Positions 18,558-24,459 of a stretch of 64,000 nucleotides of DNA are shown here, in pieces. The position numbers were made by a program, and so were the translations under genes. The stretch is from Longibaculum muris (lineage in GTDB: Bacteria > Bacillota_I > Bacilli_A > Erysipelotrichales > Coprobacillaceae). The notes under the pieces are model-generated. The model saw nothing but the letters and a program-made list of their open reading frames with translations. It made no database searches and was not told where the DNA came from. The stretch's first letter is position 1, and each line of letters starts with the position of its first letter. The DNA lies in NCBI RefSeq assembly GCF_004343035.1, contig NZ_SMCQ01000010.1:1-64000 (forward strand). The letters run 5' to 3'.

Positions 18558-21500
18558 ATGTCTAAAAAGTATTTATCTATGGATGGGAATACTGCTGCTG
18601 CACACGTAGCGTACGCTTTTAGTGAAGTTGCAAGTATTTATCCAATTACCCCATCTTCTCCAATGGCAGAAAATGCTGAAACTTGGGCTGCACAAGGGAA
18701 GAAGAATATTTTTGGGTCTGCTGTAAATGTTATTGAAATGCAATCAGAAGCTGGAGCAGCTGGGGCTGTTCACGGAGCTTTACAAGGTGGTGCCTTAGCA
18801 ACTACATTTACTGCTTCACAAGGTTTATTATTAATGATTCCAAACCTTTATAAAATTCAAGGTGAATTATTACCTGGTGTATTCCATGTGGCTGCAAGAG
18901 CACTTGCAACACGTTCATTAAATATTTTTGGTGATCATCAAGATATCTATGCATGTCGCCAAATCGGAGCACCTATGATTTGTTCTCATAGTGTTCAAGA
19001 AGTTATGGATTTAGGTGGAATTGCTCACTTAACTGCAATTAAAGCAAGTGTACCAGTTATCCATTTCTTTGATGGATTCAGAACTTCTCACGAAATTCAA
19101 AAAGTAGAAGTTATGGATTATGATGTATTAGCTAAATTATTAGATAGAGATGCATTAAAGAAATTTAAACAAAATGCTTTAAATCCACATACAAATCCAG
19201 TTGAACGTGGTGGCGCTGAAAATGATGATATCTACTTCCAAGGTAGAGAAGCACAAAATAAACATTATGAAGCTGTTGTTGAAATCGTTGCTGATTACAT
19301 GAAGAAAATTTCTGAAATCACTGGTAGAGAATATGCTCCATTTACATATTATGGTGCTGAAGATGCTGATAGAGTTATTATTGCCATGGGATCAGTTACT
19401 GAAACAGTAAAAGAAACAATTGATGAATTATTAAAACGTGGAGAAAAAGTTGGTTTAGTAAAAGTTCATTTATATCGACCATTCTCACCAAAATATCTAT
19501 TAGATGTATTACCTGAAACAGTGAAGAAAGTAGCTGTCTTAGATCGTACAAAAGAAATGGGTGCAACTGGTGAACCATTATACTTAGATGTTGTCTCTGT
19601 ATTAAAAGATAAAGACATCACAGTTGTTGGTGGACGTTATGGTATGGGTTCTAAAGATACAACTCCTCGTCAAATCAAGGCTGTTTATGATCATTTATTA
19701 GAAGAAAATCCATTTACTTCATTTACAATTGGTATCAATGATGATGTAACTCATTTATCATTAAAAGAAGATGCTGATTTCACTGTAGAAGCTGATTACA
19801 CTTCATGCTTATTCTATGGTTTAGGATCTGATGGTACTGTATCTGCTAATAAATCATCTATTAAGATTATTGGTGACCACACTGATTTATATTCACAAGC
19901 ATATTTTGCTTATGATAGTAAAAAAGCAGGTGGAGCAACTCGTTCTAACTTAAGATTTGGTCATTCACCAATTCGTGCAACTTACTATGTAAATAATGCT
20001 GATTTCATTTCATGTTCATTAGATAACTATGTATTAAAATATGATATGTTAAAGAACCTTAAAAAAGGTGGAACATTCTTATTAAATACAGAATTTAATG
20101 AAACTGAAATTATTGATTATTTACCAAATAAGTTAAAGAAACAATTAGCTGATAAAAACGCTAAATTCTATATCATTAATGCAACTAAATTAGCTGCTGA
20201 AATTGGTATGGGAAGAAGAACAAATACAATTCTTCAATCTGCATTCTTTGCTTTAAACCCACAAATTTTACCAATTGAAAAAGCTGTTGAATATATGAAA
20301 GCAATGGCTAAGAAAACATATGGTAAAAAAGGTGATGCAGTTGTTGAATTAAACTATAAAGCAATTGATGCTGGAAAAGATGCAATTGTTGAAGTTAAAG
20401 TTGATTCTGCTTGGTCTGAATTAACAGTTAATGAAACACGTCAACGTACTGGTGATGATCATTTTGATAACTTCGTATCTGTTATTAATTCATTAGATGG
20501 ATATGATTTACCAGTATCTGCTTTCATGGATAAACTTGATGGTTCTATGCAATCAGGTGTTGCAATTAAAGAGAAACGGGCAATTGCGATTGAAGTTCCT
20601 CGTTGGGAAAAAGAAAACTGTATTCAATGTAATAACTGTGTAATGGTTTGTCCTCATGCAACAATACGTGCATTCTTACTTGATGATGAAGAAATGAAAG
20701 CTTTACCAGAAGATATTTCTAATGATGTATTAAAACCAATCGGTAAAAATGTTGATGGTTTAGTATATCGTATTCAAGTTTCACCTGATAACTGTGTTGG
20801 ATGTGGTTTATGTGTAACTGAATGTCCTGGTAAGGGTGGAAAGAAAGCTTTAACTATGGTTCCTGTTAAAGAAGAATTAGAACATGCTCCTTTAGCTGAC
20901 TATATGTATTCTAAAGTATCTTATAAAGCTGATCGTTATCCAACAACAACTGTTAAAGGTGTTGGATTCATGAGACCATACTTTGAAGTATCTGGTGCTT
21001 GTGGTGGATGTGGTGAAACTCCATATTATCGTTTAGCATCACAATTATTTGGTAAAGACATGAGAATTGCTAATGCAACTGGATGTAGTTCAATTTATAC
21101 AGGATCAACTCCATCAACTCCATGTACTGTTGATGAAAATGGAGAAGGACCTGCATGGGCTAACTCATTATTCGAAGACAATGCTGAATATGGATTTGGT
21201 ATGAAATTAGCTGAAAATTATATGTCTAAACGTATTTTAGAAATTATTGAAGCTCATAAAGCTGATTGTGAAGCTGAACTTCAAGAAGTTTTAAATGAAT
21301 ATGTTGCTGTGAAAGGTCAAAGAGTTGAAGAAAGAAAATTATATGATCGTTTAGTATCATTAGTAGAAGCTTCAGCTAATGAAGGTATTAAAGAATTATT
21401 AGATATGAAAGGTGAATTAGTCACTAAATCTCAATGGATCGTTGGTGGAGATGGTTGGGCTTATGACATCGGATACGGTGGAGTTGACCATGTTTTAGCA

Positions 21501-22076
21501 AATGATCAAAATGTTAATATCTTAGTTCTTGATACAGAAGTTTACTCTAATACGGGTGGACAATCTTCTAAATCTTCTCAAGCTGGTTCTATCGCTAAGT
21601 TTACAGCTGGTGGTAAAGCAGTTGCTAAGAAAGATTTAGCTCAAATTGCAATGGCATATGGACATGTTTATGTTGCTCAAGTAGCAATGGGAGCTAATCC
21701 AATGCAAACAATTAAAGCCTTTAAAGAAGCAGAAGCTTATGATGGACCATCATTAATTATTGCTTACTCTCCATGTATGGAACATGGTATTAAAGGTGGT
21801 TTAGCAAATCATCAACAACAACAAAAACGTGCTATTGAATGTGGATATTTCAACTTATTAAGATATGATCCTCGTTTAGAAGATGCAGGAAAGAACCCAT
21901 TACAAGTGGATTCTAAAGAACCTGATTTCACTAAATTCAGAGAATTCTTATTAAGCGAAAATAGATTTGCCCAATTATCAAAAGTTAATCCAGAACATGC
22001 TGAAGCATTGATGGAAAAATGTGAAAAAGATGCTAAGAAACGTCGTGCTCGTCTTGACACAATGGCAGCTGAATAA
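18558..22076 (+). CDS. nifJ: pyruvate:ferredoxin (flavodoxin) oxidoreductase
   Basis: A 1172-residue single-chain enzyme that oxidises pyruvate to acetyl-CoA and CO2 and reduces ferredoxin, a core step of anaerobic fermentation. All domains are present in order: N-terminal pyrimidine-binding domain (YPITPSSPMAE), the gamma domain (about 420-610), two 4Fe-4S motifs (CIQCNNCVMVCP from Cys688 and CVGCGLCVTECP from Cys746), further cysteines near residue 815 (CGGCGETP), and the thiamine-diphosphate site (GGDGWAYDIGYGG from about 963, ending in LDTEVYSNTGGQ). Length is normal. It is monocistronic, divergent from the phosphofructokinase, with AGGAGGA before the ATG. Confidence 0.96.
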   Translation: MSKKYLSMDGNTAAAHVAYAFSEVASIYPITPSSPMAENAETWAAQGKKNIFGSAVNVIEMQSEAGAAGAVHGALQGGALATTFTASQGLLLMIPNLYKIQGELLPGVFHVAARALATRSLNIFGDHQDIYACRQIGAPMICSHSVQEVMDLGGIAHLTAIKASVPVIHFFDGFRTSHEIQKVEVMDYDVLAKLLDRDALKKFKQNALNPHTNPVERGGAENDDIYFQGREAQNKHYEAVVEIVADYMKKISEITGREYAPFTYYGAEDADRVIIAMGSVTETVKETIDELLKRGEKVGLVKVHLYRPFSPKYLLDVLPETVKKVAVLDRTKEMGATGEPLYLDVVSVLKDKDITVVGGRYGMGSKDTTPRQIKAVYDHLLEENPFTSFTIGINDDVTHLSLKEDADFTVEADYTSCLFYGLGSDGTVSANKSSIKIIGDHTDLYSQAYFAYDSKKAGGATRSNLRFGHSPIRATYYVNNADFISCSLDNYVLKYDMLKNLKKGGTFLLNTEFNETEIIDYLPNKLKKQLADKNAKFYIINATKLAAEIGMGRRTNTILQSAFFALNPQILPIEKAVEYMKAMAKKTYGKKGDAVVELNYKAIDAGKDAIVEVKVDSAWSELTVNETRQRTGDDHFDNFVSVINSLDGYDLPVSAFMDKLDGSMQSGVAIKEKRAIAIEVPRWEKENCIQCNNCVMVCPHATIRAFLLDDEEMKALPEDISNDVLKPIGKNVDGLVYRIQVSPDNCVGCGLCVTECPGKGGKKALTMVPVKEELEHAPLADYMYSKVSYKADRYPTTTVKGVGFMRPYFEVSGACGGCGETPYYRLASQLFGKDMRIANATGCSSIYTGSTPSTPCTVDENGEGPAWANSLFEDNAEYGFGMKLAENYMSKRILEIIEAHKADCEAELQEVLNEYVAVKGQRVEERKLYDRLVSLVEASANEGIKELLDMKGELVTKSQWIVGGDGWAYDIGYGGVDHVLANDQNVNILVLDTEVYSNTGGQSSKSSQAGSIAKFTAGGKAVAKKDLAQIAMAYGHVYVAQVAMGANPMQTIKAFKEAEAYDGPSLIIAYSPCMEHGIKGGLANHQQQQKRAIECGYFNLLRYDPRLEDAGKNPLQVDSKEPDFTKFREFLLSENRFAQLSKVNPEHAEALMEKCEKDAKKRRARLDTMAAE

Positions 22077-22115: not shown

Positions 22116-22144
22116 ATACAACCCAATCATAACAAAAACAGATA

Positions 22145-22174
22145 GGTGAGATTTCATGAATCTCATCTTTTTCT
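22145..22174 (+). terminator. second terminator upstream of spoIIGA
   Basis: GGTGAGATT (22145-22153) pairs with AATCTCATC (22159-22167, one G-U), followed by TTTTTCTT. Its tail abuts the -35 element of the spoIIGA promoter. Two tandem terminators shield the sporulation genes from nifJ read-through. Confidence 0.65.
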
Positions 22175-22207
22175 TTGACAATTTTTTTGACCATTTTTTT
22201 CTATAAT
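22174..22207 (+). promoter_or_regulatory. spoIIG-type promoter with long spacer and Spo0A-box-like motifs
   Basis: A perfect TTGACA (22175-22180) and a perfect TATAAT (22202-22207) are separated by 21 nt, too far for ordinary sigma-A use. B. subtilis spoIIG has the same peculiarity (22-nt spacing) and needs Spo0A. TTTGACA (22174-22180) differs by one base from the reverse Spo0A box TTCGACA, and TTTGACC (22186-22192) matches five of seven. Regulation by phosphorylated Spo0A is inferred. Confidence 0.6.
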
Positions 22208-22224
22208 AGAGAAGGGGTGAAATC

Positions 22225-22947
22225 ATGGAGGTCTATTTAGAAGTGACTTATTTAATTAATGCATTAATGATTTTATTAACATTTGAATTATTATGTTATT
22301 TATTAAATATACAGATGAGTCAAAAAGAATTATTGAAATATGTGCTTACCTATAACCTTTCAGTTCTTTTTCTTTATATAGATTTCTTTGATGGGTTCCT
22401 CTTATTGTATGACTTACTCTTGAGTATTTTTTATTTTAAAAAGCTTACTTACATTTATTATCCTTTGTATCTTTTTATTTATATCTCATTGCTTTCTTTT
22501 TTGAGCTGGATTCTTCCTTCAGCAGTTATCTTTCAATCTGTTTTAATTGTTGAAGGAATCCATTTTATATCTTTACTAATCATTGGTATATTATGTCTTT
22601 TGATTTTTTATTTTTATATTTCTTTTTGTCAGCATAAGATTCATTCAGATGAATATGTAGATGTCAAAATTGAAAATCATCAATGTTTAGGTTTTATTGA
22701 TAATGGTAATAAAGTTTTTTATAAGGGATATCCAGTTATTTTTATATCAAAGGAATTCTTAGGAGAATATCAAAAGATTGATAGAATTCTCATTGAAACA
22801 GCAAATCAAAAAGAATGGATAGATTTGATTATGATTGATGATATTGAAATTAATCATCAGCTTTTGCATCATGTTTATGTTGGAGTGATGTCATCTCATG
22901 AGTATGATTGTATTTTAAATTCGCAGTTATTAGGAGGCTTATTATGA
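22225..22947 (+). CDS. spoIIGA: SpoIIGA-like sigma-E-processing membrane protease
   Basis: A 240-residue protein with five N-terminal hydrophobic helices (to about 135) and a C-terminal cytoplasmic domain, the layout of SpoIIGA, the aspartic protease that removes the pro-sequence of SigE. The presumed active site is [19 protein letters not shown], with Asp159. The usual SpoIIGA motif is DTGN; here Thr is replaced by Asn (DNGN) while Asp, Gly and Asn are kept. It is shorter than the roughly 300-residue Bacillus protein. Identity rests on topology, the motif and the four-base overlap with sigE. GGGGTGA precedes the ATG. Confidence 0.85.
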
Positions 22948-23636
22948 TTTTACAGAAATTAAAGGAATTGTTTTATCGTAGAAAGACACTTTTTTATATT
23001 GGCAGACATGATGTTTTAAAAGCACCTTTAAAAGGGAAAGAGGAAGAAGATGCTTTAACACGTTTGAAAAATGGGGATGAACAGGCGAGAGATTTGTTGA
23101 TTGAACATAATTTGAGATTGGTTGTTTATGTGGCTAAGAAATATGATTCTTTGCAAAATGGGAGTATTGAGGATTTGATTAGTATTGGGACAATTGGATT
23201 GGTAAAAGCTGTTAATACATTTAAAATGGATAAAAATATAAAACTAGCGACTTATGCATCACGTTGTATAGAAAATGAGATTTTAATGTTTTTAAGGAAG
23301 AATAATAAATTAAGGCAGGAGATTTCTTTGGATGAACCATTGAATGTTGATTATGATGGAAATGAGCTGTTATTATCAGATATCATTGGTACTGATAAAG
23401 ATATTGTTCAAGATGAAATAGAACATAATGATCAAAAGGAAAAGTTTTATAAAGCTTTACATCATTTAAATAAACGAGAACAACAAATTTTAATGATGCG
23501 TTATGGTTTAATTGGACATGAAGAATTAACTCAGAAGGATGTTGCGGATATTTTAGGAATTTCTCAGTCTTACATTTCGAGATTAGAGAAAAAAATTATC
23601 AAAAAATTAAGAATGAAATTAAATGATGATGAATAA
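22944..23636 (+). CDS. sigE: RNA polymerase sporulation sigma factor SigE
   Basis: A 230-residue sigma-70-family factor for early mother-cell transcription. Region 2 carries [19 protein letters not shown] and [18 protein letters not shown], with [18 protein letters not shown]; region 4 is [20 protein letters not shown]. These are near-identical to Bacillus SigE. ATG 22944 (AGGAGG upstream, overlapping spoIIGA by four bases) is preferred to an upstream in-frame ATG at 22908. The N-terminal pro-sequence ([17 protein letters not shown] before YIG) is about 10 residues shorter than in B. subtilis, where about 27 residues are removed. Confidence 0.93.
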
Positions 23637-23679: not shown

Positions 23680-24459
23680 ATGTCAAAGTACAAAGTTGAA
23701 ATGAATGGATTTCAGATTCAGGATTGTGAAAAATTATCTCATCAACAAACAATGCAATTATTAGATGATTATCATCAAAGTCATGATGAAAAAATAAAAG
23801 AACGATTGGTTCTTGCAAATTTAAAATTAGTGTTATCATTAGTCCAAAAATATCATCAAAGAGTCTCTAATTTAGATGATTTATTTCAAGTAGGCGTTAT
23901 TGGACTTATTAAAGCAATAGAGAATTTTGATACATCTTTAGATGTTCGCTTTTCTACTTATGCTGTTCCATTGATTATTGGAGAAATAAAACGTTATATT
24001 CGTGATAATTCATCGATGCGTATTCCGCGTTCGATGCGTGATATTGCTTATAAGGCTTTAATGGCAAATGAAGAATTTATGAAGAAAAATCAGCGTGAAG
24101 CTTCTACAAAAGAATTATCAAAACTTTTAAAGATTGATGAATATTTGTTAGTAGAAGCTCTCTCATCGACAAATAGTGTAACATCTTTATCACAGGAAGT
24201 GCAAAATGATGGCAATGGTCAAATTGACTTAGAAAGTCAGATTCCTGATCGTAAAAATCAGATGGAAGATATGCAAAATCGTATTGATTTACATTCTGCG
24301 ATGAATCATTTAGATGAAAAAGAATTACAAATTATTTTAGAAAGATATTTTCTTGACCATACGCAAAGCGAAATTGCCAAAGAATTATTTATTTCTCAAG
24401 CCCAAGTTTCACGCTTAGAAAAACAAGCATTATCTCATTTAAAGAAATATATGAGCTAG
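23680..24459 (+). CDS. sigG: RNA polymerase sporulation sigma factor SigG
   Basis: A 259-residue sigma factor for late forespore transcription. Diagnostic segments are the N-terminal SKYKVEMNGFQI (SigG starts SRNKVEICGV in Bacillus), LVLANLKLVLSLVQKYHQR, DDLFQVGVIGLIKAIENFD, FSTYAVPLIIGEIKRYIRDN, RSMRDIAYKAL and the region 4 end ISQAQVSRLEKQAL. It lies 43 bp after sigE, as in Bacillus. AAAGGAG precedes the ATG. No clear separate promoter is visible in the 43-bp gap, so read-through from spoIIGA is likely; a forespore promoter cannot be excluded. Confidence 0.93.
   Translation: MSKYKVEMNGFQIQDCEKLSHQQTMQLLDDYHQSHDEKIKERLVLANLKLVLSLVQKYHQRVSNLDDLFQVGVIGLIKAIENFDTSLDVRFSTYAVPLIIGEIKRYIRDNSSMRIPRSMRDIAYKALMANEEFMKKNQREASTKELSKLLKIDEYLLVEALSSTNSVTSLSQEVQNDGNGQIDLESQIPDRKNQMEDMQNRIDLHSAMNHLDEKELQIILERYFLDHTQSEIAKELFISQAQVSRLEKQALSHLKKYMS

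Follow-up and report, generated by a model that had tools for sequence, protein, structure and literature searches.

The spoIIGA-sigE operon of Longibaculum muris is very probably transcribed from a promoter that depends on both sigma-A and Spo0A, in which a putative Spo0A (0A) box stands where a -35 element would be expected. Comparison across relatives makes this promoter convincing, far beyond chance, and the same arrangement recurs upstream of spoIIE.

The promoter and its locus

The stretch of DNA analyzed, hereafter the window, comprises the first 64,000 nt of contig NZ_SMCQ01000010.1 from the 3.17-Mb genome assembly of L. muris. Its features around the promoter are as follows.

18558-22076, pyruvate:ferredoxin-oxidoreductase-like gene, upstream of the promoter (name assigned from its sequence)
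22144-22168, terminator-like hairpin whose T-tract runs on to 22176, into the 0A box (all within 22144..22176, + strand)
22174..22180, - strand, putative 0A box, TTTGACA on the + strand and TGTCAAA on the bottom strand (from conservation, drift, and the spoIIE module)
22175-22180, -35-like hexamer TTGACA, coinciding with the putative 0A box
22181..22201, + strand, spacer of 21 nt, with a conserved T-rich first part and an unconserved middle
22186..22192, - strand, a further 0A-like motif, TTTGACC, rejected as fortuitous
22202..22207, + strand, -10 element TATAAT (read directly)
22212..22219, + strand, ribosome-binding site AAGGGGTG (from the sequence)
22225..22947, + strand, spoIIGA, 240 aa, diverged, with the motif D159-N-G-N
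22944..23636, + strand, sigE, encoding pro-sigma-E (NF006158 SigE, E 6.6e-101)
23680..24459, + strand, sigG, downstream in the conserved cluster (PRK08215 SigG, E 6.4e-79)

spoIIGA lies directly upstream of sigE, which is followed by sigG in the classical gene order, and the sigE ATG at 22944 overlaps the spoIIGA stop codon (ATGA). A preliminary description of this DNA had reported perfect -35 and -10 hexamers 21 nt apart, and direct reading bears this out (22175-22180 and 22202-22207), with a further 17 nt between TATAAT and the spoIIGA ATG. We regarded a spacer as long when a -35-like hexamer lay >19 nt from a sigma-A-type -10, as it does here at 21 nt from TATAAT; an ordinary sigma-70 scan with a 16-18 nt spacer found no promoter on the + strand of the region. 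TTGACA-N21-TATAAT occurs exactly five times in the 3.17-Mb genome, so the window site taken alone is weak evidence. The transcript is predicted to start at about 22213-22215, within or at the edge of the ribosome-binding site, leaving an extremely short leader of about 11 nt (window 22207-22225). The distance from the -10 to the ATG is 16-19 nt in 26 of the 27 family members counted.

Two 7-mers resemble the 0A box TGTCGAA on the bottom strand, one at 22174-22180 (TGTCAAA, a 6/7 match) and the other at 22186-22192 (GGTCAAA, 5/7). Both had been described earlier as 0A-box-like, but the second is absent in relatives and lies 12 bp from the first, out of the tandem 10-bp register, and we rejected it as a chance match. 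No tandem 0A partner 10 bp from the 22174-22180 box was found in the window; such a partner is a usual, not a defining, feature.

When the upstream regions of relatives were folded, hairpins similar to that at 22144-22168 were seen directly next to the box in about half of the window's family. The T-tract that runs straight into the putative Spo0A box in the window (22144-22176) occupies the same place at loci L005, L006, L016, and L026.

Conservation of the spacing before spoIIGA

Upstream regions of spoIIGA were gathered at the family, order, and class levels, and 112 of them entered the distance count. In each, the strongest -10 candidate ahead of the start codon was chosen first, blind to GACA, and every GACA was then placed by its distance from that -10. 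The preliminary description had proposed such an alignment as its check, and the spacing proved to be kept: GACA lies exactly 21 nt upstream of the -10 in 28/28 regions of the window's family and in 77/112 regions of one class. Other distances among the 112 were rare (20 nt in 6, 22 nt in 3, 31 nt in 7, and any other in 0-3), and 200 dinucleotide-preserving shuffles of the same regions placed GACA at 21 nt 0.3 times on average and never more than 3 times. The -10 itself is TATAAT or TATGAT in 27 of the 28 family members. Mean pairwise identity within the family is 0.34 in the upstream flank, 0.33 in the mid-spacer, and 0.71 in the first 8 nt of the spacer. Because flank and mid-spacer share about one-third of their bases pairwise, the constant spacing does not come from recent descent.

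These figures bear on the idea that the -10 is real while GACA has been kept for terminator function or through shared descent and not for regulation. Two things speak for that idea: a terminator T-tract directly adjoins the box in many relatives, and in group f12 the box often falls within an inverted repeat. The flanks, however, are unconserved, terminators vary in sequence and position, the constant feature is the distance to the -10 and not to the hairpin, and spoIIE, a different locus, has the same distance. We consider this explanation extremely improbable.

Group f12 is probably RF39-like. At its loci L161-L164, L169, L174, L175, L184, and L218 the 0A box makes up the 5' arm of an inverted repeat, and a run of Ts after the repeat extends to the -10 or close to it, giving the spacer of the promoter a terminator-like element. 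This inverted repeat could explain part of the box conservation in f12. In family f9, GACA lies at 31 nt in five of seven regions (L181, L182, L190, L215, and L216), exactly 10 bp farther upstream than the 21-nt position. A shift of the whole f9 site by 10 bp was considered and dropped, since copies in tandem at exactly -10 bp in spoIIE make the loss of the proximal half-site simpler; f9 may retain no more than the upstream half of a tandem site. Five Clostridia MAG loci (L058-L062) inspected by eye had no obvious 21-nt module. In genus g2, spoIIGA is broken by frameshifts or stops at L013 (genome G001) and L014 (G004), with the L013 promoter intact, and either sporulation loss or sequencing error is a possible cause.

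The hexamer as a probable Spo0A box

Sites were collected from spoIIGA and spoIIE, 134 in all, each chosen for having GACA. The two bases before GACA are TT in 30, AT in 27, TC in 23, AC in 17, GT in 14, CT in 13, and others in 10, and the base directly before it is a pyrimidine in 131 of these 134 GACA-selected sites. The hexamer thus drifts to TCGACA, ACGACA, ATGACA, and GTGACA, whereas a sigma-A -35 is expected to hold its TTG. Spo0A contacts G2, C4, and G5 of the 0A box (PMC3485338), and the part that is kept, a pyrimidine plus GACA, is the complement of TGTC(R), the contacted part of the box. It is because the first two bases drift while GACA stays that the hexamer reads as a 0A box, and judged from this sequence variation it behaves as a Spo0A box (bottom strand TGTCRAA) and not as a sigma-A -35. 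The earlier proposal of a 0A box lying over the -35 is therefore modified: the 6/7 box is conserved, but the hexamer itself appears to be that box and not a -35 beneath it. Sites reading TGACAAA, mainly spoIIE of the window's family, also fit a + strand 0A box (TGNCRAA), and TCGACA or ACGACA sites fit only the bottom-strand reading. A second GACA occurs exactly 10 bp upstream in 8/134 sites, against none or one at each of the remaining upstream offsets, and five of these eight are spoIIE sites of the sister family; 10 bp is the known tandem 0A register.

The same observations weigh on another reading of the window, a sigma-A promoter of the usual kind that has an unfavorable 21-nt spacer and lacks a regulator, in which TTGACA is a plain -35. 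The window hexamers are perfect consensus and TTGACA is found in 20/28 family members, as that reading would have it, but across the class TTGACA makes up only 30/134 sites while GACA persists. A freely evolving sigma-A promoter should, moreover, regain 17 nt, and 21 nt is fixed throughout the family; spoIIE has the same geometry as well. We regard an unregulated promoter as very unlikely.

The same module at spoIIE and a different arrangement at spoIIA

Upstream of spoIIE, an NNGACA-21-TATAAT-like module is present in nearly all window-family members examined, with 20 nt in two close relatives, and the 21-nt module is also found in most members of the order's other family, the sister family. 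Perfect, forward-oriented TGTCGAA boxes stand upstream of spoIIA in many members of the window's family, which makes it very likely that Spo0A there recognizes the standard site, and the forward orientation is as expected if spoIIA uses a different promoter class. Among the spoIIAA upstream regions of the family (L093-L121), a TTCTAGTTTTGTCGAA element recurs, with a perfect 0A box inside it in many members; sometimes there are two tandem copies of it, spaced by about 20 bp and weaker in form.

Genome-wide searches of L. muris and two Stoquefichus-like genomes gave no convincing new 21-nt target. Besides spoIIGA and spoIIE, the 21-nt matches in those three genomes were mostly coding-looking or came from a CRISPR-like repeat array; one such array, L124 on contig 1 of the L. 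muris genome near 298690, has a repeat ending in ATATAATCTAACCAGAAATTGGAATGTAAAT.

Spo0A and SpoIIGA in the family

Absence of spo0A would have spoken against a Spo0A-controlled promoter, and one Spo0A_C gene was found in the genome; the DNA-binding domain that it encodes is conserved and aligns over its full length with structures 1FC3 and 1LQ1 (1LQ1 being a B. subtilis-type Spo0A). In the window's family, spo0A was detected in 31/43 genomes and spoIIGA in 32/43, in nearly the same set. The promoter is present and spo0A was not detected in MAG G009 (92% complete), and spo0A is present and spoIIGA absent in G021; the genomes G008 and G015 are incomplete. In genus g20, which is Thomasclavelia-like (e.g., G036, G037, and G038), the DNA-binding domain of Spo0A is encoded two to four times per genome, in genes or in fragments, and one of these usually adjoins spo0A on the opposite strand.

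A regulator other than Spo0A could in principle read GACA at these promoters, given that GACA alone is a short core and that one MAG has no detected spo0A. Against this stand the drift to TCGACA, which yields the perfect 0A core TGTCGA, and the 10-bp tandem register, the conservation of the Spo0A domain, and the C. difficile data considered below, all of which favor Spo0A. We judge a different regulator to be decidedly unlikely.

The window SpoIIGA protein has no direct Pfam or NCBIfam model match, but PF03419 (SpoIIGA) matches 15 of 25 aligned family members, and the family profile aligns over its length with TIGR02854-matching SpoIIGA of other lineages (E 3.5e-20, probability 99.3). Of the protease motif D-(S/T)-G-N, the Asp, taken as catalytic, the Gly, and the Asn are invariant in 25/25 aligned sequences. 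D-N-G-N replaces D-S/T-G-N in the window (22696-22710, residues 158-162) and in most of its nearest relatives. By SpoIIGA, the nearest named relatives are Candidatus Stoquefichus and Massilimicrobiota, followed by Faecalibacillus and Thomasclavelia, and a taxonomy look-up placed two of the nearest in Erysipelotrichales. One survey listed spoIIGA as additionally present in RF39 relative to an Erysipelotrichales reference (PMC10868615). A tailored profile search recovered it in 55/209 Erysipelotrichales genomes, which indicates that SpoIIGA occurs in many Erysipelotrichales, where its sequences are probably too diverged for standard models and annotation.

Proposed mechanism

In the mechanism we propose, Spo0A~P would bind the box at 22174-22180 (bottom strand TGTCAAA), which would replace the -35 element, with its GACA core 21 nt from a strong -10. 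Over that distance sigma-A should be unable to engage TTGACA and TATAAT at once, and the promoter would stay silent as long as polymerase lacks a contact with Spo0A~P, presumably made at sigma region 4 as in B. subtilis. With that contact, polymerase would take up a position downstream of the box and open the DNA at the -10. Because spoIIE has the same module, SpoIIE and SpoIIGA/pro-sigma-E would switch on together at high Spo0A~P, SpoIIE serving sigma-F activation and SpoIIGA with pro-sigma-E supplying the second component for compartment-specific sigma activation. Spo0A binding, activation, polymerase repositioning, and timing at this promoter are all inferred by analogy.

The pattern across relatives may amount to one strict rule for direct Spo0A-sigma-A promoters throughout the class to which Erysipelotrichales and its relatives belong, in which a 0A-box GACA stands 21 nt from the -10, before spoIIGA and spoIIE alike, and in which f9 has lost the 21-nt box and activates from 31 nt; we consider the chances of this to be about even. 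Spo0A in f9 would then activate from one helical turn farther upstream, at the remaining GACA at 31 nt, which is the upstream tandem position. If strict, such a rule could be an aid in predicting which genes Spo0A controls directly in spore formers that are uncultured or genetically intractable. Conservation of the geometry across an entire class of gut bacteria appears to mean that an old control circuit of the Bacillus type has survived far from Bacillus. This suggests that gut commensals, which have lost a large part of the sporulation genes of Bacillus, run the compartment-specific sporulation switch from the same promoter geometry.

Comparison with known systems

In B. subtilis spoIIG, a 0A box lies at the -35-like hexamer, and the spacing is 22 nt. 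The window promoter resembles it in serving the same operon with the same neighbors and in having a -35-like hexamer too far away for sigma-A alone, but it differs in its spacing of 21 nt and in having a single recognizable box; a distal 0A site like that of spoIIG was not identified at the window promoter. The B. subtilis spoIIE promoter is likewise sigma-A-dependent and Spo0A-activated, and its spacing is reportedly 21 nt, as here, although in the window's family one geometry serves both spoIIE and spoIIGA. The preliminary description had likened the site to spoIIG: a Spo0A-controlled promoter with a long spacer is indeed favored, but its length is that reported for spoIIE, one nucleotide short of spoIIG. 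The wider claim, that the switch to compartment-specific sporulation is wired as in B. subtilis, is in keeping with the constant spacing, the presence of spo0A, and the spoIIE module, and its activation step is extended from spoIIG, where Spo0A acts with sigma-A (PMC12090719 and references therein).

Evidence from C. difficile points the same way. Its spoIIGA has an RNA-seq-mapped sigma-A promoter, GTGACA/TATAAT, and sigE expression falls 240-fold without spo0A (PMC3789822). Spo0A binds the spoIIGA, spoIIE, and spoIIAA promoters of C. difficile, the binding at spoIIGA being direct and weak (PMC3485338). Although C. difficile belongs to the Clostridia, its spoIIGA promoter is like the one described here in combining a GACA-bearing hexamer with TATAAT.
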